A stretch of DNA of 64,000 nt from Pseudomonas eutrophicaquae (GTDB lineage: Bacteria > Pseudomonadota > Gammaproteobacteria > Pseudomonadales > Pseudomonadaceae). Made by a program: the position numbers and the translations under genes. The notes under the pieces were generated by a model. The model searched no databases, was not told where the DNA came from, and worked only from the letters and a program-made list of their open reading frames with translations. Positions 5,310-24,131 of this stretch are shown piece after piece. Within the stretch, counting starts at the first letter, position 1, and each line of letters starts with the position of its first letter. The stretch lies in the NCBI RefSeq assembly GCF_023544715.1, contig NZ_JAMJEZ010000003.1, positions 106,386-170,385 on the forward strand, read 5' to 3'.

Positions 5310-6086
5310 CTAACAGCGCTCGCCGGGCAAAAACAGCCCGTTGCCCGTCTCCTCGACCGTCTGGCGAATCATCTGTTCGGCGTACTGCGCCAGCGCGCTG
5401 CGCCCCAGCCCTGCGCTGTCGATCGGCGCGAGCAAGTGAATCTCGACACAGGCGCGCTCGGCCGCCAGCAGGCGCAGCAGATGCTGCGGCAGGGCATCGT
5501 CGTCGATGAAGGGCGCCAGCGTGTCGAGCTGGCCCGCGCGCCGATAGCGCAGCGCCACCGGCTGCACCACCAGGCCCGCTTCTGCGACCGCTGCGAGCAA
5601 ACGCGGGTGAAAGCGCCGCACCGTGCGCCCATCAGAGCTGGTGCCCTCGGGGAAGATCGCCAGCGGCCGGCCTGCACCGATCTGCTGCGCGAGCTGCGCG
5701 CTCAGCTCCCGGCTCTGCCCGGCCCCGCGCGCAATGAACAGCGTGCCGGCCTGGCGCGCCAGCCAGCCGAGCAGCGGCCAGTCGGCGACTTCCTGCTTGG
5801 CGAGAAAAGACAGCGGCTGCAGGGCGCCGAGCACGGCGATGTCGGTCCAGGACACATGGTTGGCCAGCCACAGGCAGGGCTGGGTGGGCAGCGCGCCGTG
5901 TATCTGAACCTTGAAAGGCAGCGCCGCCTGCAGGTGACGCATGAAGCGGCAGGTCAGGCGCTGGCGCCGTGCGAGTGAGAACGGCGCTAGGCGGGCAAAC
6001 AGGCTGATCACCCCGGCATACAGCGCACCTTCGGCCAGCACCAGGGCCAGGCGCGGCAAGCGGACCAGCAGACGCAGGCGGCGCAT
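5310..6086 (-). CDS. olsA: Lyso-ornithine lipid O-acyltransferase (OlsA, PlsC-like)
   Basis: The 258-residue membrane-associated acyltransferase carries the HX4D catalytic motif NHVSWTD (His77, Asp82) and the FPEGTS phosphate-binding motif at 145-150. An amphipathic N-terminus is typical of PlsC relatives. Its ATG overlaps the olsB stop by one base (TGATG), so the two are translationally coupled. That pairing identifies it as OlsA, which adds the second acyl chain to lyso-ornithine lipid, rather than the general lysophosphatidate acyltransferase. Ornithine lipids replace phospholipids under phosphate limitation in many bacteria; no clear Pho box was found. Confidence 0.88.
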   Translation of the reverse strand: MRRLRLLVRLPRLALVLAEGALYAGVISLFARLAPFSLARRQRLTCRFMRHLQAALPFKVQIHGALPTQPCLWLANHVSWTDIAVLGALQPLSFLAKQEVADWPLLGWLARQAGTLFIARGAGQSRELSAQLAQQIGAGRPLAIFPEGTSSDGRTVRRFHPRLLAAVAEAGLVVQPVALRYRRAGQLDTLAPFIDDDALPQHLLRLLAAERACVEIHLLAPIDSAGLGRSALAQYAEQMIRQTVEETGNGLFLPGERC

Positions 6087-6841
6087 CAGCAGGCGGTCTT
6101 GAAGTGCCGGGCGTAGCGCGGGCAGAGCTGATCGCGTTGCAGCAGGATGAAGACATCCGCGACCTGAAAATCCGGGTCCCAGCACGGCTCACCGCAGACC
6201 TTGGCGCCCAGACGCAGGTAGGCTTTGAGCAAGGGCGGCAGCTCGGCGCTGAGGTTGTCCGCCAGCTCCAGCGCAGGCAGCGGCTGGCGCGGCTCGGCGC
6301 GCAGGGTCTCCCGGCACAGGTGCTGCTCGCGCAGGCGCCGCATCACCGCCTGGGCCTGAATGCCGCCATCTCGCATGGGGATGCTGGCGCAGCCCATCAG
6401 GTAGCGGTAGCCGCCTTCATTGAGGATTTCCGCCAGCGCCGACCACAGCACGGCGATGGTCGCACCGTTGCGATAGCCCTCGGCCACGCAGGTCCGGCCG
6501 ATTTCCAGCACCGGGCCGCTCAGCCGGCCCAGACCATGCAGGTTGAACTCCGCCTCGCTGTAGAAACGGCCGAGACGCCGCGCGGTGGCCTGATCGAGCA
6601 GCCTGGTGGTGGCGACCAGCGCACCGCTGGCAAGATCCCGCACGCCCAGATGCAGGCAGTGGTCATCAAAGCCGTCGCGGTCAAGTTCAAGCTCGGTGTC
6701 CTGCAGTTGAGCGCCGCATTCATGGCCAAACACCTGATAACGCAGGGCCTGGGCTTCGAACAGGGCTTCACTGCCGTACAGGCGCTCGGCCTGCAAGCGG
6801 CGTGGATCGCGTGGGGTGTGGGGGAGAGCGGAACAGGTCAT
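6086..6841 (-). CDS. olsB: L-ornithine N-alpha-acyltransferase (OlsB)
   Basis: The 251-residue GNAT-fold enzyme transfers a 3-hydroxyacyl chain from acyl carrier protein to ornithine, the first step of ornithine-lipid synthesis. The stretch around VLEIGRTCV and [12 protein letters not shown] matches the OlsB/hemolysin-like acyltransferase core. It is also the region shared with autoinducer-synthase-like folds. It is the first gene of the olsB-olsA pair and ends inside the olsA start codon. The ATG at 6841 gives the usual family length. Divergent from the phospholipase D gene, so 6842-7078 must hold promoters for both; no convincing operator was seen there. Confidence 0.92.
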
Positions 6842-8287: not shown

Positions 8288-9811
8288 TTACTTGACTTCG
8301 ACCGCCAGGCTCTCGGCGATCTTCTGCTTCCAGATCTGCGGGCCGGTGATGTGCACCGACTCACCGTTGGCATCGACCGCCACGGTCACCGGCATGTCCT
8401 TGACCTCGAACTCGTAGATTGCTTCCATGCCCAGTTCCTCAAAGGCCACCACGCGCGACTGCTTGATCGCCTGGGCGACCAGGTAGGCGGCGCCGCCGAC
8501 AGCCATCAGGTACACGGCCTTGTTGTCCTTGATCGCCTCGATGGCGATTGGGCCACGCTCGGACTTGCCGATCATGCCCAGAAGGCCGGTCTGCTCAAGG
8601 ATCTGGCGGGTGAACTTGTCCATACGGGTGGCGGTGGTCGGGCCGGCCGGGCCAACCACCTCGTCACGCACCGGATCGACCGGGCCGACGTAGTAGATGA
8701 AGCGGCCTTTGAGGTCCACCGGCAGCTGCTCGCCTTTGTTGAGCATATCGACCATGCGCTTGTGCGCCGCATCACGGCCGGTGAGCATCTTGCCGTTGAG
8801 CAGGATGGTTTCGCCCGGCTTCCAGCTCTGCACCTCTTCCGGAGTCAGGGTGTCGAGGTTGACGCGACGGGCGCTCGGGCCGGCTTCCCAGACGATTTCC
8901 GGGTAGGCGTCCAGCGGCGGGGCTTCCAGCACGGCCGGGCCGGAGCCATCCAGCACGAAGTGGGCGTGACGGGTGGCCGCGCAGTTGGGGATGATGCATA
9001 CCGGCAGCGAGGCGGCGTGGGTCGGGTAGTCCTTGATCTTCACGTCGAGCACGGTGGTCAGACCGCCCAGACCCTGGGCGCCGATGCCCAGCTGGTTGAT
9101 CTTCTCGAACAGCTCAAGGCGCAGTTCCTCAATGCGGTTCTGCGGGCCGCGGGCTTTGAGCTCATGGATGTCGATCGACTCCATCAGCACTTCCTTGGCC
9201 ATCAGCGCGGCCTTCTCGGCGGTGCCGCCGATACCGATGCCGAGCATGCCCGGCGGGCACCAGCCAGCGCCCATTTCCGGCACGGTCTTCAGTACCCAGT
9301 CGACGATCGAGTCGGACGGGTTGAGCATGCCCATCTTCGACTTGTTCTCCGAGCCACCGCCCTTGGCGGCCACGTCCACTTCCACCTTGTCGCCGGGGAC
9401 GATGGAGTAGTGGATGACAGCCGGGGTGTTGTCCTTGGTGTTCTTGCGGGCACCTGCCGGGTCGGCGAGGATCGAGGCACGCAGGACGTTTTCCGGCAGG
9501 TTGTAGGCGCGGCGCACGCCTTCGTTGATCATGTCGTCGACGCTCATGGTGGCGCCATCCCAGTGCACATCCATGCCGACCTTGACGAACACGGTGACGA
9601 TACCGGTGTCCTGGCAGATCGGACGGTGGCCGGTGGCGCACATCCGCGAGTTGATCAGGATCTGGGCGATGGAGTCACGGGCTGCCGGCGACTCTTCGCG
9701 CAGGTAGGCCTCGTGCATGGCCTGGATGAAGTCGACGGGGTGGTAGTAGGAGATGTACTGCAGGGCATCGGCGACGCTCTGGATCAGGTCGTCTTGCTTG
9801 ATTACGGCCAT
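8288..9811 (-). CDS. Class I (iron-sulfur) fumarate hydratase
   Basis: This 507-residue enzyme belongs to the oxygen-sensitive FumA/FumB family and interconverts fumarate and malate in the TCA cycle. The N-terminal alpha domain contains MCATGHRPICQDTG (Cys58, Cys66), and further conserved cysteines lie in GAGWCPPGMLG and CIIPNCAATRHAH. Three of these hold the [4Fe-4S] cluster. The C-terminal beta domain follows from about residue 340. Full family length, clean ATG with GAGGA upstream. It stands alone with its own terminator. Pseudomonads usually also carry the iron-free FumC elsewhere for iron-poor conditions. Confidence 0.96.
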   Translation of the reverse strand: MAVIKQDDLIQSVADALQYISYYHPVDFIQAMHEAYLREESPAARDSIAQILINSRMCATGHRPICQDTGIVTVFVKVGMDVHWDGATMSVDDMINEGVRRAYNLPENVLRASILADPAGARKNTKDNTPAVIHYSIVPGDKVEVDVAAKGGGSENKSKMGMLNPSDSIVDWVLKTVPEMGAGWCPPGMLGIGIGGTAEKAALMAKEVLMESIDIHELKARGPQNRIEELRLELFEKINQLGIGAQGLGGLTTVLDVKIKDYPTHAASLPVCIIPNCAATRHAHFVLDGSGPAVLEAPPLDAYPEIVWEAGPSARRVNLDTLTPEEVQSWKPGETILLNGKMLTGRDAAHKRMVDMLNKGEQLPVDLKGRFIYYVGPVDPVRDEVVGPAGPTTATRMDKFTRQILEQTGLLGMIGKSERGPIAIEAIKDNKAVYLMAVGGAAYLVAQAIKQSRVVAFEELGMEAIYEFEVKDMPVTVAVDANGESVHITGPQIWKQKIAESLAVEVK

Positions 9812-9955
9812 GGAACACGGTCCTCTTCAGGCGGGAACTTCACGGCGCGCCACCCCTGAGGGCAGCGCAAAGGGCGCGAGAGTATAGCGCGCAGGCTGCG
9901 CTGCGGGACACTCGCGGCGCCCGACAATGGTCGATGAACGCACGCGCGGCCGGTA

Positions 9956-10366
9956 TCAGGCCTCGCCAGCCAGACGCCGTTCGAGCTGGAAGCGCCAGCG
10001 GGTGTAAAGCAGCGCGGCGCAGAACACCACGCTGCTCAAGAGCGCTTCCACCAGGCCAAAGGTCAGGCGCCCCGGTTCAAAGGCGGTGACCACCCCCTGG
10101 ATGAAATACAGGTTGATCACATAGCACAGCCAGGCGTGCACCCGGGCGCTGCCCAGCAGGATGCCCGGGGCCAGCAGCAGCAGCGGCACGGCCTGCACGC
10201 CGAGAATCACCCACGGCCGGGCGCCGTGCAGATCGACGATCTGCAGATACCAGACGGCCAGCGCCAGCAGCAGGGCAAGAAAGGCGATCAGGGTCAGAAC
10301 GCGCGCCAGACGCACGCGCGGCTGCAGCCAGTCCAGGGGCGGCAGCGGTTTGGGGGTTCGGGCCAT
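9956..10366 (-). CDS. DUF2069 family small inner-membrane protein
   Basis: The 136-residue product has four hydrophobic helices (roughly residues 24-45, 53-75, 80-100 and 105-127) separated by short loops, fitting the DUF2069 family of unknown function. Start ATG 10366 follows the wrbA stop by one base, so it is read from the wrbA message. The same wrbA-DUF2069 order is common in pseudomonads. No catalytic residue pattern is visible; function is unknown. Confidence 0.85.
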   Translation of the reverse strand: MARTPKPLPPLDWLQPRVRLARVLTLIAFLALLLALAVWYLQIVDLHGARPWVILGVQAVPLLLLAPGILLGSARVHAWLCYVINLYFIQGVVTAFEPGRLTFGLVEALLSSVVFCAALLYTRWRFQLERRLAGEA

Positions 10367-10367
10367 C

Positions 10368-13186
<2,819 letters not shown>

Positions 13187-13234
13187 GCGTCAGGTGCTGC
13201 GGCGTCTGGCGGGATGACGGCGGCCAGCTGGCCG

Positions 13235-14185
13235 TCAGTCATCCTCCGGCAGGGTTGGGGTGCGCCCGGCCTTGCGGCGTAGCCCCTCGAGCAGCTCCTG
13301 CTGCAGCTCGGGGTCGTGACGGGTCAGTTCGAGCAGACCTTGTTCGAGTTCATCGGCCTCCTCATCGAATTGCAGGGCGACCAGGCGGCGCACCCGCTCG
13401 ACCCAGCGATCCACATCCTCACCCTCCAGATCCGCATGGATCAGGGCGCGGGCCTCGCGCAGGCGACGGCGCAGATCCGCCTCGATGCCAAGGCGCAGAT
13501 CGGCATGGGTCTTGCCGTCATCGCTCTCGACCCGCAGTTGCAGGTGGTCCAGGCGGCGACTGTCCAGCTCGCTGAACGGCTGATCCAGCAGGTCCAGCTC
13601 CAGCTGTCCCTGGGCATCGGTGAACAGCTCATACAATTGCCCGGCCACCCGCACCGTCACCGGGCGCTCGCTCCACGGCAGGTTGCTGTGCTCCAGACGA
13701 AGATCGCGCGGCTGCTCCTCGAGCGCGGCCAGGTTCTGCTGGGCACGGCCGTTGGATTCGACATTCATGAACGGGTTGATCCCCGCCAGCCCGTAGCCGA
13801 TCCAGCCACGGGTCACGTTGTCCGGCAGGCTGCCCAGCGCCACCACGTTCACCAGGTTAGCCGCGCCACCCGCCACCAGCGCCAGGGCGCCGAGGGGCAG
13901 CTCGTAGAGCTCGCGCCACGGTTGGTAGGGGGTGTAGCGTTGGTAGCGGCGCGTCACCTCGTACTCGCGTACCTCAAAGGTCTTCTGCTCGTTGACGCGC
14001 ACCGTCTGGCGCGGCTGGCTCAGCGTGCGCACCTCGCCGGCATCCAGATACAGGCTGTGATCAAGCAGCCGGCGCTCGACGCGCGACTCCAGCTCGCTGC
14101 GTTGCGGCAGCTGGTTGGCGCAGCCGGTGAGGAACACGGCGCCGCACAGGGCGGCGCCGGCAAGGCGATGGTGGCGTCTGGGCAT
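13235..14185 (-). CDS. Hypothetical lipoprotein
   Basis: This 316-residue protein has a lipoprotein signal (FLTGC, Cys22). A periplasmic region follows with Tyr/Arg-rich stretches, a Gly/Ala-rich hydrophobic segment near residues 95-115, and an acidic, Leu/Arg-rich C-terminal 100 residues likely to be helical. I do not recognise a characterised family, though a lipoprotein of this kind next to proS is usual in Pseudomonas. ATG 14185 is seven bases after the proS stop, so it is probably co-transcribed with proS. Confidence 0.82.
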   Translation of the reverse strand: MPRRHHRLAGAALCGAVFLTGCANQLPQRSELESRVERRLLDHSLYLDAGEVRTLSQPRQTVRVNEQKTFEVREYEVTRRYQRYTPYQPWRELYELPLGALALVAGGAANLVNVVALGSLPDNVTRGWIGYGLAGINPFMNVESNGRAQQNLAALEEQPRDLRLEHSNLPWSERPVTVRVAGQLYELFTDAQGQLELDLLDQPFSELDSRRLDHLQLRVESDDGKTHADLRLGIEADLRRRLREARALIHADLEGEDVDRWVERVRRLVALQFDEEADELEQGLLELTRHDPELQQELLEGLRRKAGRTPTLPEDD

Positions 14186-17521: not shown

Positions 17522-17538
17522 GTTAATGGTTTCTTAAG
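17522..17538 (+). promoter_or_regulatory. QseB/PmrA/BqsR-type operator before the four-gene oxidase cluster
   Basis: GTTAAT (17522-17527), five bases, then CTTAAG (17533-17538) form a tandem box. Written in the BqsR style it is TTAAT-N6-TTAAG; in the PmrA style it is a near match to YTTAAT-N5-YTTAAG. It ends 46 bases before the ATG at 17585. OmpR-family regulators of the QseB/PmrA/BqsR group bind such direct repeats, and one is encoded 4.4 kb downstream. A second box precedes the CptA gene at nearly the same distance from its start. Binding is inferred. Confidence 0.6.
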
Positions 17539-17584: not shown

Positions 17585-18280
17585 ATGGCGGGGTTACCGA
17601 GCTTCGATGAGCGCAGTTGGCTGCGGATTGGTCCCGAGCAGGGGCTGGAGTTGTATGGCTGCGCCGTCGGTACCGACGCACAACGGCGCCAGCCATTCGA
17701 GACCCTGATCGCCACCTGCTTTGCCGAGCATTACGGCGCGCAGCTGCGTCAGTTCATGCCCTGCCTGCTGGGGCTCAAGGATGTGGCAGGCCAGCTGCAG
17801 GCCGTGGCCGGGCTGCGTTCGGCGGCGGCGGAGCCGCTGTTTCTTGAGCGCTACCTGAGCGAGCCAATTGAGCAGGCGGTGGCTCGGCAGCGCGAGACAC
17901 CGGCGCTGGACCGCGAGCAGCTGGTCGAGGTCGGCAATCTGGCGGCCCGTGGTGCCGGTCAGGCCCGCCTGCTGATCGTGGCGCTGACCCAGATGCTGGC
18001 CTTGAGCGGGATTCGCTGGGTGGCCTTCACCGGTACCTCGCTGCTGCTCAACAGCTTCCAGCGCCTTGGGGTGACGCTGCTGAATCTGGGCGCGGCCGAT
18101 GGGCGTTGCCTGGGCAGTGAGCAGGCGGACTGGGGCAGTTATTACGCCACGCACCCGCAGGTGATGGTCGGGGATGTGCTGGCGGCTCATCAGCGTCTGC
18201 AGACAGCGGGGGTCTACCAGCGTCTGGGCTGTCGGTCGCTGCGTGATGCCGAGCAGGAGTGCAGCCATGTCGCCTGCTGA
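17585..18280 (+). CDS. Thermostable-hemolysin family protein (PF12261), acyltransferase-like
   Basis: The 231-residue cytoplasmic-looking protein (no signal, no membrane helix) fits the family named after the Vibrio thermostable delta-hemolysin. The core VEVGNLAARGAGQARLL (residues ~115-131) resembles the VLEIGRTCV...GATIAVL core of OlsB in this same window and of autoinducer synthases, pointing to a GNAT-type acyltransferase fold rather than a toxin. Start 17585 has GAGGAG seven bases upstream. Its last 14 bases overlap the next gene, an AMP-ligase, so the two are translationally coupled. An acyl-CoA or acyl-adenylate-dependent transfer is inferred. Substrate unknown. Confidence 0.82.
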   Translation: MAGLPSFDERSWLRIGPEQGLELYGCAVGTDAQRRQPFETLIATCFAEHYGAQLRQFMPCLLGLKDVAGQLQAVAGLRSAAAEPLFLERYLSEPIEQAVARQRETPALDREQLVEVGNLAARGAGQARLLIVALTQMLALSGIRWVAFTGTSLLLNSFQRLGVTLLNLGAADGRCLGSEQADWGSYYATHPQVMVGDVLAAHQRLQTAGVYQRLGCRSLRDAEQECSHVAC

Positions 18281-19715
18281 GTTCTTCCGGCAACTGGTCG
18301 GACATGGCGAGCGGATGGCCCTCTGCGACGGCCACCAGCGCCTCAGTTACAGCGAGCTGCTCGCCGAGGTCGGGGCGCGTGCCCGGCAGCTGCAGCAAGG
18401 GGGTGTCCGGCGTCTGGCGCTGGCGCTGGATAACGGCCCGGACTGGCTGTTGTGGGATCTGGCCGCGCTACAGGCTGGCGTGGTCTGCGTGCCGTTGCCG
18501 GGCTTCTTTTCCTCCGCCCAGCAGCGCCATGTGCTGGAGAGTGCCGGCGTTGACACGCTGCTGGCCGCCGATCCGCAGGCCTTTGCGGATCTGGGCTTTG
18601 CGCCGCGGGCGGGGCTTTCTCAGCGTGCCGTGAGCCACGCGCCGGAGCTTGCGCCCGGCACGGCGAAGATCACCTACACCTCCGGTACTACCGGGCAGCC
18701 CAAGGGCGTGTGCCTGTCGGCTGAGGCGATGCTGCGGGTGGCGCAGAGCATTGCCGAGCGCATCGCTGTCTGCGGCATTAGCCGGCATCTCTGCGTGCTG
18801 CCACTGGCGGTGCTGCTGGAGAACCTGGCCGGCGGTTACAGCGCCTTGCTGCTCGGTGCGGGTCTTGAGTTGCCGGCTCTGGCCACGGTCGGCATGCAGG
18901 GTGCCAGCGGCTTTGACCTGCCGGCCTTCCTCGCCACTCTGGGGCAGGTAAAGCCGAGCAGCCTGATCCTGCTGCCGCAGCTGCTGCTGGCGCTGGTCAC
19001 AGCGGCCGAGCACGGAGCGCTACTGCCCGACTCACTGCGCTTTATCGCGGTAGGCGGCGGGCGAGTGGCGCCGCAACTGCTGGAGCGTGCCGAGGCGCTG
19101 GGGCTGCCGGTGTTCGAGGGCTATGGGTTGTCCGAATGCGCCTCGGTAGTGTGTTTGAACACACCTGGCCAGCGCCGGATTGGCAGCGTCGGCGTGCCAT
19201 TGCCCCATGTCGAGCTGCGCCTGGCCGCCGATGGCGAGGTGCTGGTGCGGGGTGCGCACTTTCTCGGTTATCTGGGCGAGCCGCCCCAAGCGAGTGAATG
19301 GCTGGCGACCGGGGATCTGGGGCACTGGGAGGAGGGCTTTCTGGTGCTGCACGGGCGCAAGAAGCATCAGTTCGTCACCGCCTTCGGCCGCAACGTCAAT
19401 CCCGAATGGGTGGAGGCCGAGCTGGTCCAGCAGGCCGCCATCGCCCAGGCCTGGCTGCATGGCGAGGCCTTGGCCGCCAACGTCGCGCTGCTGGTGCCGC
19501 GCGGCGAGGTAAGCGATGCCGCGCTGCAGGCCGCGGTCGATGCGGTCAACGCCCAGCTGCCGGACTACGCTCGTGTACACCACTGGCTGCGTGCTACGCA
19601 CCCCTTCAGTGAGGCCAATGGTTTGGCTACCAGCAACGGTCGCTTGCGCCGTGTCGCGCTGCTCGAACATTACCGTCCGGTCATCGAAGACCTGACGAAC
19701 GATTTGACTGTCTAG
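18267..19715 (+). CDS. AMP-dependent synthetase/ligase (ANL superfamily)
   Basis: The 482-residue enzyme is an adenylate-forming ligase. The P-loop is ITYTSGTTGQPKG (135-147), the A5-like motif is EGYGLSE (near 290), and the hinge region GDLGHWEEGFLVLHGRKK (about 350-370) is intact, but the C-terminal domain is short. It would activate a carboxylate, most likely a fatty acid, as an acyl-adenylate and then a thioester. It overlaps the upstream acyltransferase-like gene by 14 bases with AGGAG seven bases before its ATG. The diiron oxidase gene follows after 13 bases. Which acid it activates cannot be told. Confidence 0.85.
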   Translation: MSPAEFFRQLVGHGERMALCDGHQRLSYSELLAEVGARARQLQQGGVRRLALALDNGPDWLLWDLAALQAGVVCVPLPGFFSSAQQRHVLESAGVDTLLAADPQAFADLGFAPRAGLSQRAVSHAPELAPGTAKITYTSGTTGQPKGVCLSAEAMLRVAQSIAERIAVCGISRHLCVLPLAVLLENLAGGYSALLLGAGLELPALATVGMQGASGFDLPAFLATLGQVKPSSLILLPQLLLALVTAAEHGALLPDSLRFIAVGGGRVAPQLLERAEALGLPVFEGYGLSECASVVCLNTPGQRRIGSVGVPLPHVELRLAADGEVLVRGAHFLGYLGEPPQASEWLATGDLGHWEEGFLVLHGRKKHQFVTAFGRNVNPEWVEAELVQQAAIAQAWLHGEALAANVALLVPRGEVSDAALQAAVDAVNAQLPDYARVHHWLRATHPFSEANGLATSNGRLRRVALLEHYRPVIEDLTNDLTV

Positions 19716-19728
19716 AGGATCTGCCACC

Positions 19729-20403
19729 ATGAATTTCTTCGATACCCTGCAGCAACAGACCCAAACCGAGCGGGACTACCTGCTGGCCGCGCCGATCTTT
19801 GCCGAGGTGCAGAGCGGGCGCATCACCCTGGAGAGCTACGTGGCGTTCCTCGCCCAGGCCTACCACCACGTCAAGCACACTGTACCGCTGCTGATGGCCT
19901 GCGGCGCGCGCCTGCCAGAGCGGCTGGAGTGGCTGCGCGGCGCGGTCGCCGAGTACATCGAGGAGGAATACGGCCATCAGGAGTGGATCCTCAACGACAT
20001 CCGCGCCTGTGGTGGCGATGCCGAGGCGGTGCGTCAGGCCACACCGGCGCTGCCCACCGAGCTGATGGTCAGCTACGTCTACGACCGCATCGCCCGGGCC
20101 AACCCGGTGAGCTTCTTCGGCATGGTCCATGTGCTGGAAGGCACCAGCATCGCGCTGGCCAGCCAGTCGGCGGCGATCATCCAGCAGCGCCTGCAGTTGC
20201 CGGCGCAGGCGTTCAGCTACCTGAACTCCCACGGCAGTCTGGATATCGGCCATGTGGAGTTCTTCAAGGGGCTGATGAATCGTCTGGAGGACGCGGACGA
20301 TCAGGCCGCCGTCCTGCACACCGCCAAGGTGGTCTATCGCCTGTACGGTGATCTGTTCCGCAGCCTGCCGCTGTCCGGGGAGGCTGCCCATGAACCTTGC
20401 TGA
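19729..20403 (+). CDS. Heme-oxygenase-like diiron oxidase (HDO; TenA/UndA-like fold)
   Basis: The 224-residue all-helical protein fits the iron-containing redox enzyme family. Candidate metal ligands are Glu80 and His83 (EEEYGHQE), Glu137 (HVLEGTS), His168, Asp172 and His175 (HGSLDIGHVEF). The order E-x2-H, E, H-x3-D-x2-H is that of the diiron oxidases UndA and CADD. UndA turns lauric acid into 1-undecene; others hydroxylate, cleave or N-oxygenate. Thiaminase TenA lacks this ligand set. Here it follows an AMP-ligase and overlaps an SDR gene by 14 bases, so an O2-dependent step on an acyl-derived intermediate is inferred. It is shorter than UndA and probably not an orthologue. Confidence 0.85.
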   Translation: MNFFDTLQQQTQTERDYLLAAPIFAEVQSGRITLESYVAFLAQAYHHVKHTVPLLMACGARLPERLEWLRGAVAEYIEEEYGHQEWILNDIRACGGDAEAVRQATPALPTELMVSYVYDRIARANPVSFFGMVHVLEGTSIALASQSAAIIQQRLQLPAQAFSYLNSHGSLDIGHVEFFKGLMNRLEDADDQAAVLHTAKVVYRLYGDLFRSLPLSGEAAHEPC

Positions 20404-21181
20404 TTGCCGCATCCTGCTCACCGGGGCCAGTGGCGGCATCGGTGAGCAGCTGGCGCTGCAGCTGGCCGCCGCGGGGGCTCAGTTGCTACTGGTCGCGCGC
20501 CAGCGCGAGCGCCTGGAGCCTCTGGTGGCCCGCTACCCGGAGCGTATCGAGGCTGTGTGTGCTGATCTCACCCAGTACGCCGGGCGCGAGGCGGTGGTGG
20601 AGGCGGTGCGCCGCCGCGGCGGCATCAACCTGCTGATCAATGCCGCTGGGGTCAACCGTTTTGGTCTGTTCGAGCAGCAGAGTGATGAGACGATTGCCGC
20701 GCTGCTGCAGCTCAACGTCACCGCCACACTGCAGCTCACCCAGGCGCTGCTGCCGCTGCTGCACCAGGAAGAGCAGGCGATGGTGGTCAATGTCGGCTCG
20801 ACCCTGGGCTCGATCGGCTATCCGGGGTACGCCGCCTACTGCGCCAGCAAGTTCGCCGTGCGCGGTTTTTCCGAGGCGCTGCGCCGCGAGCTGGCCGACA
20901 CGCCGATCAAGGTGCTGTACGTGGCGCCACGGGCAACGCACACGGCGATGAATGACGCCTCGGTGGTGGCGATGAATGCTGAACTGAATTCCGCGATGGA
21001 CACCCCCGCCGCGGTGGCGGCCCAGGTGCTGGAGGCCATCGCCCACGAGCGCAAGGAGCGCTATCTGGGCTGGCCGGAAAAACTCTTTGTCCGTCTGAAT
21101 GCCCTGTTGCCGAGGCTGGTGGATCGAGCCCTGCGCAAGCAGTTGCCGATCATTCAGCGCTTTGCGCGCGGTCAATCCTGA
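20390..21181 (+). CDS. Short-chain dehydrogenase/reductase
   Basis: The 263-residue Rossmann-fold oxidoreductase has the nucleotide motif TGASGGIG (11-18), NAAG near 84-87, and the catalytic set Ser137, Tyr150 and Lys154 (YCASK). Classical SDRs of this length reduce carbonyls or oxidise alcohols with NAD(P)H. GGGGAGG lies six bases before the ATG, and the start overlaps the oxidase gene by 14 bases. It closes the four-gene set. A C-terminal hydrophobic/basic stretch (PEKLFVRLNALLPRLVDRAL) hints at membrane association, as in SDRs acting on lipid substrates. Confidence 0.88.
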   Translation: MNLADCRILLTGASGGIGEQLALQLAAAGAQLLLVARQRERLEPLVARYPERIEAVCADLTQYAGREAVVEAVRRRGGINLLINAAGVNRFGLFEQQSDETIAALLQLNVTATLQLTQALLPLLHQEEQAMVVNVGSTLGSIGYPGYAAYCASKFAVRGFSEALRRELADTPIKVLYVAPRATHTAMNDASVVAMNAELNSAMDTPAAVAAQVLEAIAHERKERYLGWPEKLFVRLNALLPRLVDRALRKQLPIIQRFARGQS

Positions 21182-21200: not shown

Positions 21201-21863
21201 ATGAGCCTTAAAAAATCTTTCCTGCGTCCCGTCATGCTGGGTGCTGCCTTGCTGGTCAGCCTGCCAGGCTTTGCCCTGACTGCCAGCGGCGAGCAGAACC
21301 TTAAGCAGTTGCAGAGCCGCTGGGCAGCGATCAACTATCAACTGCCCGAGGCGCAGCGCGAGGCGGCCTTCGAGCAACTGGCCGGCGAGGCCGCAACCCT
21401 GCTCAAGGCGGAGCCGCAGGCGGCGGAGCTTTTGATCTGGCGCGGGATCATTCTCAGCACTTGGGCGGGTGCCAAGGGCGGGCTGGGCGCGCTGGATCTG
21501 GTCAAGCAGGCGCGCAGTGCCTTTGAGCAGGCGCTGCGCCTTGACCCCAACGCCCTGCAGGGCTCGGCGTATACCAGCCTTGGCTCGCTGTACTATCAGG
21601 TGCCCGGCTGGCCGATCAGCTTTGGCAATGCAGAGCGTGCCGAGGAGCTGCTCAAGCAGGCACTGGCGATCAATCCGGATGGCATCGATCCCAACTTCTT
21701 TTATGCCGACTTCCTGATGGGCGAGCAGCGTTACGCCGAGGCCGAAGCGGCCCTGCGCAAGGCGCTGGCCGCTCCGGCGCGGGCGGGGCGTGAGGTGGCG
21801 GATGCCGGGCGGCGTCAGGAGGCGCGCGCCTTGCTGAACCGGTTGCAGGCGCAAACGCGTTGA
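21201..21863 (+). CDS. Exported TPR protein
   Basis: The 220-residue protein has a signal peptide (cleavage near GFA-LTA, residue ~25) and helical repeats. Clear TPR-like units lie around SAFEQALRLDPNA, AEELLKQALAINPDG and AEAALRKALAAPA (residues ~110-205). GGAGGGGG precedes the ATG, which is 19 bases after the SDR stop, so it likely belongs to the same message. A periplasmic protein-protein adaptor role is expected; the partner is unknown. Confidence 0.85.
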   Translation: MSLKKSFLRPVMLGAALLVSLPGFALTASGEQNLKQLQSRWAAINYQLPEAQREAAFEQLAGEAATLLKAEPQAAELLIWRGIILSTWAGAKGGLGALDLVKQARSAFEQALRLDPNALQGSAYTSLGSLYYQVPGWPISFGNAERAEELLKQALAINPDGIDPNFFYADFLMGEQRYAEAEAALRKALAAPARAGREVADAGRRQEARALLNRLQAQTR

Positions 21864-21969: not shown

Positions 21970-22629
21970 ATGCGCATATTGCTGGTGGAAGACGATCAGG
22001 CCCTGGGCGAGGGGATTCGTACCGCCCTCAAGCCCGAGGGCTACACGGTGGACTGGCTGCAGGATGGCGCCAGCGCCTGGCATGCCCTGAGCAGTGAGAG
22101 TTTCGATCTGTGCGTGCTGGATCTGGGCCTGCCGCGCATGGATGGCCTGGAGGTGCTGCGCCGCCTGCGCGCTGCCGGCAATCCACTGCCGGTGCTGGTG
22201 CTCACCGCCCGCGATGCCACCTTCGATCGCATCGCGGGGCTGGATGCCGGGGCGGATGATTATCTGGTCAAGCCGTTCGATGTCGCCGAGCTCAAGGCGC
22301 GCCTGCGGGCCTTGCTGCGCCGCAGCTTCGGCCGCGCCCAGCCGGCGCTGGAGTACCGTGACATCCGCATTGATCTGGAAAGCCAGCAGGTCACCTATCG
22401 CGGCGAGCCGGTCAGCCTGACCCGCAAGGAGTTTCTGCTGCTCCACGAACTGCTCGCCCAGCCGGGTCGGGTGCTGACCCGCGATCGCCTGCAGCAGGTG
22501 CTGTATGGCTGGGGTGAGGAGATCGAGAGCAACGCCCTGGAGGTGCATGTGCATCACCTGCGCAAAAAATTCTTTCCCGAGCTGATCCGCACCCTGCGCG
22601 GCGTCGGCTATCAGGTGGACAAGGCATGA
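21970..22629 (+). CDS. OmpR/PhoB-family response regulator, QseB/PmrA type
   Basis: The 219-residue regulator has a receiver domain (acidic pocket Glu7/Asp8, phospho-acceptor Asp51 in CVLDLGLPRMDG, Lys in LVKPFD) and a C-terminal winged helix. The recognition-helix region SNALEVHVHHLRKKF is characteristic of the QseB/PmrA/BqsR group, which binds TTAAG-type direct repeats. Two such boxes occur in this window, before the four-gene cluster and before the CptA gene. It overlaps the sensor gene by four bases (ATGA). No such box is seen just before this gene itself. Confidence 0.93.
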   Translation: MRILLVEDDQALGEGIRTALKPEGYTVDWLQDGASAWHALSSESFDLCVLDLGLPRMDGLEVLRRLRAAGNPLPVLVLTARDATFDRIAGLDAGADDYLVKPFDVAELKARLRALLRRSFGRAQPALEYRDIRIDLESQQVTYRGEPVSLTRKEFLLLHELLAQPGRVLTRDRLQQVLYGWGEEIESNALEVHVHHLRKKFFPELIRTLRGVGYQVDKA

Positions 22630-24131
22630 GCCTGCGCTCGATTCGCGCCCGCACGCTGGTACGGGTGCTCGGGGTGCTGGCGCTGTCTTTGACGGTGATT
22701 TCCTGGCGCAGCTACGGCGATGCTCAGCATGAGATCGAAGAGCTGTTCGATGCTCAGCTGGCGCAGAGTGCCCGGCTGCTGGCCGGCATGGTGCATGGCC
22801 AGATGCCGGAATCGGCGCGTCTGGCGCTGCAGCAGTCGCTGGACGGTGCGCTGCTGGCGCGGCGCACCGCGCCTGCGATGGCCGATGCCCAGGGTCACAA
22901 GTACGAGAGCAAGCTGGGCTTTGTGGTATTCGACGACGATGGAAAGGGCTTGCTGCAGTCGGCGGGCGCGCCGCTTGAGGCGCTTGGCCGTCTGGTGGTC
23001 GAGGCGCACCGGGCGGCGCACAGGCCGCAGCGCGAGGCTGGTGTGGCACTGGCGAGCATCGCCACCCAGCTGGTCGGCTATCACGATGTGCCGCTCAATG
23101 GTCGTCAGTGGCGCACCTTCATGTTGCACGACACTGCGGACCATCTCTGGGTGATGGTGGCCGAGCGCGAGGATGTGCGCGGCGAGCTGGTCGGCAAGAT
23201 CACTCTGCGCAGCCTGCTGCCGGATCTGATCGGGCTGCCCTTGCTGGCGGTGCTGGTCTGGCTGGCCATCGGGGTCGGCTTGCGTCCGCTGGAGCGCATG
23301 GCGGCGGCGCTCAAGGCCCGTGATCCTGACACGCTGGCGCCTCTGGCGCTGGGCGCGCTGCCCCGTGAGCTGGAGCCGATGGTGACGGCGCTCAATCGGC
23401 TGCTGCAGCAGGTCGAGAGCCTGCTGGAGCACGAAAAGCGCTTTCTCGCCGATGCGGCCCATGAGCTGCGTACCCCGCTGGCGGTGCTGCGCATCCACGC
23501 GCAGAACGCCCTGGAGGCGCCGGATCCTGCTGATCGCGCCGCCGCTCTGCAGCAGCTGATCGGCGGCGTGGAGCGCTCGACCCGGGTGGTGACCCAGCTG
23601 CTGACCCTGGCCCGTCTGGAGCCTGAGGTGGTGCAGGGGGCGATGCGCGAGCTGGACCTGCAGCGCTGGCTGCGCAATGAGCTGGCCGAGCTGATTCCCC
23701 TGGCGCTGGCCCGGGGGCAGGAGCTGGCGCTGGAGATCGACGAGACCGCCGACTACCGGCTGTCCGCTGATGCGCCTAGCCTCGGTACCTTGCTGCAGAA
23801 CCTAGTCGGCAATGCCGTGCAGTACACCCCCGAAGGCGGGCAGATCACGGTCAGCCTGCGCGCCGAGGCGCGACGTATTGGTCTGTGTGTGGCCGACAGC
23901 GGCCCCGGCGTGCCTCCCGAGCAGCGTGAGCGGCTGTTCCAGCGCTTCTTCCGGCTGGAGAGCGGCGCCGGTGCCGGCGCCGGACTTGGGTTGTCCATTG
24001 TCCAGCGCATTGTCGAGCTGCATGGCGGGGAGATCCGTCTGCAGGCTTCGCCACTGGGTGGTCTGCAGATCGAGGTCTGGCTGCCCCGTCATCTGCACGC
24101 ATCAGCCGATCAGCCGCTTGTGGCACACTGA
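22626..24131 (+). CDS. Sensor histidine kinase, QseC-like
   Basis: The 501-residue inner-membrane kinase has a transmembrane segment at about 12-30, a periplasmic domain to ~200 beginning with the QseC-like EIEELFDAQLAQ stretch, a second membrane segment (~200-222), HAMP, the H-box DAAHELRTPL with His279, and a C-terminal ATPase domain (N-box NLVGNAVQYTP, DSGPGVP, GAGLGLSIV). The signal is unknown: the RExxE iron motif described for BqsS is not clearly present. It pairs with the adjacent QseB/PmrA-type regulator. Confidence 0.93.
   Translation: MSLRSIRARTLVRVLGVLALSLTVISWRSYGDAQHEIEELFDAQLAQSARLLAGMVHGQMPESARLALQQSLDGALLARRTAPAMADAQGHKYESKLGFVVFDDDGKGLLQSAGAPLEALGRLVVEAHRAAHRPQREAGVALASIATQLVGYHDVPLNGRQWRTFMLHDTADHLWVMVAEREDVRGELVGKITLRSLLPDLIGLPLLAVLVWLAIGVGLRPLERMAAALKARDPDTLAPLALGALPRELEPMVTALNRLLQQVESLLEHEKRFLADAAHELRTPLAVLRIHAQNALEAPDPADRAAALQQLIGGVERSTRVVTQLLTLARLEPEVVQGAMRELDLQRWLRNELAELIPLALARGQELALEIDETADYRLSADAPSLGTLLQNLVGNAVQYTPEGGQITVSLRAEARRIGLCVADSGPGVPPEQRERLFQRFFRLESGAGAGAGLGLSIVQRIVELHGGEIRLQASPLGGLQIEVWLPRHLHASADQPLVAH

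Follow-up and report, generated by a model that had tools for sequence, protein, structure and literature searches.

Organization of the locus

Within a 64,000-nucleotide stretch of Pseudomonas eutrophicaquae DNA, hereafter the window (contig NZ_JAMJEZ010000003.1, positions 106,386 to 170,385; host assembly of 2.55 Mb in 57 contigs), a gene of the "thermostable hemolysin" family (T_hemolysin, PF12261) opens a run of genes that is best described as a widely conserved, uncharacterised and probably biosynthetic unit (Table 1). It is followed by genes encoding an AMP-forming acyl ligase of the ANL type, a haem-oxygenase-like diiron oxidase (HDO), a classical short-chain dehydrogenase/reductase (SDR), a TPR protein, and a two-component system (TCS) made up of a response regulator (RR) and a sensor kinase (HK). 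The T_hemolysin and ligase genes share a 14-base overlap, the ligase and HDO genes are separated by 13 bases, and the HDO and SDR genes again overlap by 14 bases, exactly as the first-pass annotation of this DNA had described for four tightly ordered genes on the + strand; further downstream, gaps of 19 bases (SDR/TPR) and 106 bases (TPR/RR) and a 4-base overlap (RR/HK) were found. That annotation was right to link the four enzymes and to place the TPR protein and the TCS downstream of them, and drew the boundary too narrowly, for the true unit comprises five to seven genes, of which the TPR gene and usually the TCS genes are members, the TCS probably being its regulator.

Table 1. Genes and putative operator of the T_hemolysin locus (positions are those of the window)
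Feature	Position	Strand	Basis
Putative response-regulator operator, GTTAAT-N5-CTTAAG	17522..17538	+	same site as G000:C33:123907-123923
T_hemolysin, PF12261 "thermostable hemolysin"; predicted N-acyltransferase with LuxI/FeeM-like GNAT fold	17585..18280	+	Pfam E 9.7e-59
AMP-forming acyl ligase (ANL), AMP-binding and AMP-binding_C_3	18267..19715	+	PF00501 E 2.8e-47
Haem-oxygenase-like diiron oxidase (HDO), all six metal ligands	19729..20403	+	PF14518 E 2.3e-30
Classical SDR, NCBIfam NF006565/PRK09072	20390..21181	+	PF00106 E 2.7e-47; NCBIfam 395.6 bits, cut-off 238
TPR protein, probably exported, weakly TRAP T-component-like	21201..21863	+	PF16811 29.4 bits, cut-off 26.5
OmpR-type response regulator (RR); closest NCBIfam models PmrA and QseB, both below cut-off	21970..22629	+	
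Sensor kinase (HK), QseC-like with 2CSK_N periplasmic part	22626..24131	+	Pfam, NCBIfam

The first product belongs to the T_hemolysin family by its Pfam score (198.5 bits against a PF12261 gathering score of 27). The ligase has the AMP-binding core motifs, with T138, S139, G140, T142, P145 and G147 present in all 35 aligned rows, and the SDR catalytic residues Y150 and K154 are present in 34/34 rows. The TPR protein carries a conserved stretch, VPGWPxxFG, and an apparent signal peptide (judged by eye).

Conservation of the gene set

PF12261 was found in 38 of 369 genomes drawn from the class, in 78 of 398 drawn from the phylum (77 above the cut-off; about half from one family, f207), and in 79 of 149 drawn from the host's family. 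Three sets of loci were compared: all 37 other class loci, 40 loci chosen from the phylum and family lists with few from f207, and a set from named genomes made up of the best 80 of 580 confirmed HDO matches, counted over 79 since the remaining locus (L071) begins inside the operon. The named set was selected by its HDO, and HDO absence is therefore not measurable from it. Neighbours were counted if they lay no more than 8.5 kb from T_hemolysin and on its strand. The loci cannot be treated as independent (L069 and L153 apparently come from one genome, and many named loci are closely related); upstream stretches are distinct in 155 of the 156 loci.

Among the 37 class loci, a ligase gene lies beside T_hemolysin in 35, an SDR gene in 34, an HDO gene in 32 and a TPR gene in 31. 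The five-gene core (T_hemolysin, ligase, HDO, SDR, TPR) is complete in 28/37 class, 76/79 named and 34/40 chosen loci, so that the co-occurrence outside close relatives on which the first-pass annotation had staked its grouping does hold; all seven genes are present in 23/37, 71/79 and 20/40 loci, and an RR relative is absent within 8.5 kb in 3/37, 6/79 and 17/40. The gene order recurs in most fetched loci and across many families of the class, including named Pseudomonas, Stutzerimonas, Azotobacter, Microbulbifer, Aromatoleum, Hydrogenophaga, Rhodoferax and Mariprofundus (the last three with the TCS missing in part), the named relatives being mostly Pseudomonadaceae. When the HDO profile was run against the 369 class genomes, 33 genomes were matched at E<=1e-90, all 33 among the 38 with PF12261, and a 34th genome (G111) has a broken HDO. 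The linkage of T_hemolysin and HDO is thus strong in both directions, far beyond close relatives.

Five class loci (L052, L065, L040, L047, L045) have no HDO gene. The contig of L052 stops within the ligase gene, and the HDO of the same genome (G179) is found on another contig; L040 and L047 also have no ligase, and in two chosen loci (L183, L186) T_hemolysin stands alone. Several irregular copies were also seen. The HDO of L044 and the T_hemolysin match of L186 are each split in two pieces, as in a decaying copy or an assembly error, and two genomes have two T_hemolysin copies (G421; G396, with core genes in L182 and alone in L183). By eye, the T_hemolysin of L040 adjoins apparent glycolate oxidase subunit genes, and cytochrome-like genes separate T_hemolysin from the ligase in L043. 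A defence system was also considered and discarded, the five core proteins having no PADLOC match.

The "hemolysin" as a predicted N-acyltransferase

The earlier suggestion that the "hemolysin" resembles GNAT acyltransferases is borne out by the modelled fold. The best PDB matches of the AlphaFold model (pLDDT 88.8) in VIA and Foldseek searches are TofI, LasI, RpaI, BjaI and FeeM; the model has a LuxI-type GNAT fold and also agrees with that of FeeM, and on this basis the protein looks closest to the LuxI-type acyl-homoserine lactone (AHL) synthases and the N-acyl-amino-acid synthase FeeM, by a small margin over other GNAT proteins. Comparison with PDB sequences gave nothing meaningful. AHL synthases such as LasI and EsaI contain a pair of Asp residues that bind S-adenosylmethionine (SAM); in residues 30-75 of T_hemolysin, in a register taken from a weak alignment, there is no Asp-majority column, and the sole mostly acidic column is 39. 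A true AHL synthase was rejected on the sequence models and the missing Asp pair. The gene context differs too: in contrast to the LuxI-type synthases TofI, LasI, BjaI and RpaI, the operon adds a ligase, HDO, SDR, TPR protein and TCS, and the partner genes are not those of FeeM, whose family model (PF21926) is not matched.

The oxidase and its replacements

The HDO is predicted to be a diiron oxidase using O2. Its metal ligands, the three-His/three-carboxylate set in a haem-oxygenase-like fold, are invariant (32/32). Fold and ligand set are held in common with 3dde, CADD, UndA, HrmI and MboA; identity is 22% to 3dde, which is titled a domain of unknown function, and the other named HDO enzymes are more distant.

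In some lineages an Fe/2-oxoglutarate enzyme of the TauD type occupies the place of the HDO. The order in L045 is SDR-TPR-TauD-T_hemolysin-ligase-RR-HK, and in L150 it is T_hemolysin-ligase-TauD, followed by two class-III aminotransferase genes and an amidase gene. HDO and a TauD of the L045/L150 kind were found together in none of the 156 T_hemolysin loci. The L045 TauD resembles trimethyllysine dioxygenase, GntD, gamma-butyrobetaine dioxygenase and VioC weakly, far below cut-offs, and the L150 TauD matched no NCBIfam model. The L150 cluster (9143-13888), in a genome of the window's family, appears to be a different branch of the pathway.

Six genomes that lack PF12261 (G019, G022, G093, G121, G170, G224) also carry distant HDO enzymes (E 1e-10 to 1e-63), and G036 has one as its second copy; six of these loci, all except that of G170, were inspected. 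The HDO gene is followed by a FeeM/OlsB-type acyltransferase gene in one (L239, from G093) and adjoins a gene for a GH3-type enzyme in another (L243, from G036); GH3 enzymes are acyl-amino-acid synthetases. In L240 and L242 the HDO is fused to ketoacyl-synthase-III-like parts beside a DUF6999 gene (by Pfam for L242, by eye for L240), in L238 it adjoins a globin gene, and in L241 an unassigned gene and a flavin reductase-like gene. The L241 gene after the HDO appeared LuxI-like by eye and was left uncounted, there being no Pfam match. In L239 (7457-9318) the two genes touch, and the FeeM-type acyltransferase carries a cyclic-nucleotide-binding domain.

Oxidation of an N-acyl-amino-acid-type intermediate is favoured, though not proved, by the TauD replacements and by the FeeM- and GH3-type genes next to two of these HDO relatives. 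The first-pass annotation had instead proposed that a fatty acid is activated, passed to an acceptor, oxidised and then reduced; in such a pathway the HDO would attack the acyl chain itself, much as UndA does, and the SDR would then yield an aldehyde, an alcohol or a modified lipid. We regard this pathway as doubtful: UndA ranks under 3dde and CADD among the structure matches of the HDO, level with haem oxygenases, the replacements and neighbours just described suggest amino-acid chemistry, and no clear role would be left for the LuxI-like acyltransferase.

A putative operator and the two-component system

The 450 bases upstream of each T_hemolysin match were scanned for the pattern TTAA-N7-TTAA, which was found in 71 of 156 loci, where 1.1 were expected from mononucleotide shuffles (maximum of 200, 6) and 1.3 from first-order resampling (maximum of 100, 6). 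The evenly drawn class set alone gave 23/36 against 0.6 expected. Other TTAA spacings from 3 to 13 occur in 1-4 loci each, and the box is rare before the other genes (ANL 0/153, HDO 2/150, SDR 1/147, TPR 1/144, RR 7/131). With one mismatch allowed, the N7 spacing was found in 46 of the 85 remaining loci, mainly Pseudomonas of the named set, against 6-12 for spacings 4-6 and 8-11. In the seven loci with a box before the RR, the TCS is divergent (L035, L092, L157, L160) or apart (L041, L167, L170), so the TCS there carries its own copy of the box; in L166 the TCS is also apart and no box precedes the RR.

The T_hemolysin box is of the same class as TTAAG-N6-TTAAG, the operator of the Fe(II)-responsive regulator BqsR (excerpts of PMC4682146); in the window one of the two pentamers ends in T and not in G. 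Of eight other genomes of the genus, seven have a single strict site, about 135 bases before the T_hemolysin match; the eighth (G798) has no strict site despite its T_hemolysin. In the window's own genome a relaxed pattern was found at three places: at the operon, at a sulfatase-like gene, and at a DUF2271 gene whose neighbour is PepSY-like (the last two names partly by eye), and a single-target regulon is thereby ruled out for this genome; the DUF2271 and sulfatase-like sites may belong to another PmrA-type regulator. The DUF2271 gene (L188 952-1517, on G000:C9) has a flavinylation-type TGAS motif, its PepSY-like neighbour by eye, and a palindromic CTTAAG box upstream.

Orthology to PmrAB or QseBC was rejected, as both proteins score below the NCBIfam equivalog cut-offs (RR: 247.5 against 330 for PmrA and 229.8 against 345 for QseB; HK: 257.5 against 475 for QseC and 196.4 against 314 for PmrB); no BqsRS model was among the NCBIfam rows shown. 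BqsRS and PmrAB have the operator class in common with the present system, and PmrA is the closest RR model. In contrast to these systems, the RR and HK genes here usually lie within a biosynthetic operon. We conclude that the encoded TCS probably regulates the operon.

Two narrower readings of this regulation were weighed, both of which we consider unlikely. By the first, a special case of the explanation preferred below, the product would be an autoinducer that is exported, presented through the TPR protein to the QseC-like kinase encoded in the operon, and so raises its own synthesis; such a circuit would be arranged as in LuxM/LuxN, but with a LuxI-fold synthase. The signal-synthase fold modelled for T_hemolysin, the presence of kinase and operator in the same operon, and the single strict operator just upstream of T_hemolysin in seven of the eight other genus genomes are all consistent with it. 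Against it, the group of regulators and operators includes metal-responsive systems, the TCS lies apart with cupredoxin-FTR1 genes in L041, L166, L167 and L170, some loci (counted above) have no RR relative within 8.5 kb, and no exporter gene is seen repeatedly across the 37 class loci.

The second reading, a metal response, holds that the TCS senses iron or copper and that under this condition the pathway supplies a chelator or a component of the envelope. Cupredoxin and FTR1 genes do occur near T_hemolysin in 8/37 class, 2/79 named and 5/40 chosen loci, after the kinase gene or in a separate operon with it, and the separate TCS-cupredoxin-FTR1 operons of L041, L167 and L170 have the same box, which equals that of BqsR. 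The second box of the window's genome precedes the DUF2271 gene with its PepSY-like neighbour, a class tied to iron reduction (PMC8238504, in excerpt), and HDO enzymes, the matched HrmI among them, can N-oxygenate. FTR1 genes are nevertheless missing from most loci, the separate TCS-FTR1 operon of L166 has no box before its RR, and neither a TonB receptor nor an exporter recurs in the class loci. A His-preceded ExxE motif follows the first membrane helix in 10 of the 20 kinases compared, the window's included, and is missing in the other 10; a motif of this kind is discussed for iron-sensing kinases in excerpts of PMC12666569.

The hemolysin label in the published record

The literature search covered the matches listed, by titles and the starts of abstracts, with subscription journals mostly outside it. 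No paper containing the term PF12261 was found, none of the matches treats the T_hemolysin family as acyltransferases, and none names a pathway or proposes a product. Among these matches, and as far as their excerpts go, the region is known solely by the Vibrio "dth"/delta-VPH hemolysin name. The Vibrio region is alike in gene families by name and not by DNA comparison; its genes are discussed as a haemolysin, a fatty-acid ligase or an iron-uptake protein, with VCA1110 as the ligase DthC and VP1729, VP1731 and VP1735 interacting by network analysis, and no pathway is assigned in the parts seen (PMC12208996, PMC10469919). A survey of Vibrio counted the hemolysin gene among virulence traits (PMC5592226, in excerpt). 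In Serratia ATCC 39006, or1352-1355 have in common with the present operon a T_hemolysin-like protein, a ligase and an iron oxygenase, but with TauD instead of HDO and with a Bcr/CflA exporter, and the excerpt names no SDR, TPR protein or TCS there; all four genes are in the top ten raised genes of an rsmA mutant, the T_hemolysin-like or1354 by 184-fold (PMC4046660).

According to the same paper, delta-VPH of V. cholerae was reported to be haemolytic in lysates and supernatants, yet has no signal peptide. No toxin protein would be needed to explain this if the acyltransferase made an amphiphilic, heat-stable compound, and the heat-stable haemolysis of the family could come from such a surface-active product. 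That T_hemolysin is a real haemolytic toxin with unrelated neighbours, as the published activity might suggest, is very improbable given the missing signal peptide, the modelled enzyme fold, and the strong association of the gene with the same enzymes or with those that replace them.

Proposed pathway

On balance we favour, with modest confidence, an operon that regulates itself and is dedicated to making a small acylated metabolite, in which T_hemolysin is the N-acyltransferase and HDO or TauD oxidises the product, best read as an oxidised N-acyl-amino-acid-type metabolite. The ligase would activate a carboxylate, probably a fatty acid; T_hemolysin, to judge by its modelled fold, would transfer the acyl group onto an acceptor that is an amine or an amino acid but not SAM; and the HDO, or TauD in some lineages, would oxidise the resulting molecule, most likely at the amino-acid moiety. 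The SDR, with its catalytic residues in place, could complete the redox chemistry, the TPR protein may bind or pass on the product in the periplasm, and the encoded TCS would turn the operon on by binding the TTAAG-N6-TTAAG operator found upstream.

Several observations weigh against this proposal. The position of the C-terminal catalytic Lys of the ligase (459) is Arg in 28/35 rows, the window included, Lys in 4/35 and another residue or a gap in 3/35, and Arg for Lys may weaken adenylation. Sequence profiles do not establish kinship of T_hemolysin with either synthase family (hhalign probability 5% for LuxI and 28% for FeeM), and 0/35 members match PF00765 (LuxI) or PF21926 (FeeM) at E<=5. 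In the structure comparisons, Foldseek TMq is at most 0.55, with RpaI at rank 34, and the lowest-placed AHL synthase within the first ten VIA hits (14.0) scores level with the best ordinary GNAT protein (13.6), EsaI lying below it at 12.7. In four of the six distant-HDO loci inspected, the HDO adjoins no verified N-acyl-amino-acid enzyme. The operator class is common to PmrA and BqsR regulators, and a cognate RR-operator pair is therefore not proven.

Elsewhere in the window, on the - strand (5310-6841), an OlsB-like PF13444 acyltransferase gene (6086-6841) overlaps a gene that looks PlsC-type by eye (5310-6185), a probable ornithine-lipid pair.

In its furthest form, which we hold to be improbable, the proposal would make the T_hemolysin family LuxI-fold synthases of a new N-acyl compound, tailored by HDO or TauD and SDR and sensed by its own kinase with a periplasmic TPR presenter, in a widespread, so far unrecognised signalling or effector-metabolite pathway whose small molecule would account for the haemolysis; the autoinducer circuit would then combine a LuxI-type enzyme with a two-component receptor. 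If the favoured explanation is true, a family annotated for decades as hemolysin is a biosynthetic enzyme, and the operon, carried by many Pseudomonas species, would point to an abundant new metabolite and perhaps a new HDO reaction, with the marker gene present in the class- and family-draw genomes counted above. The operator and the linked TCS make this reading of the operon directly testable.

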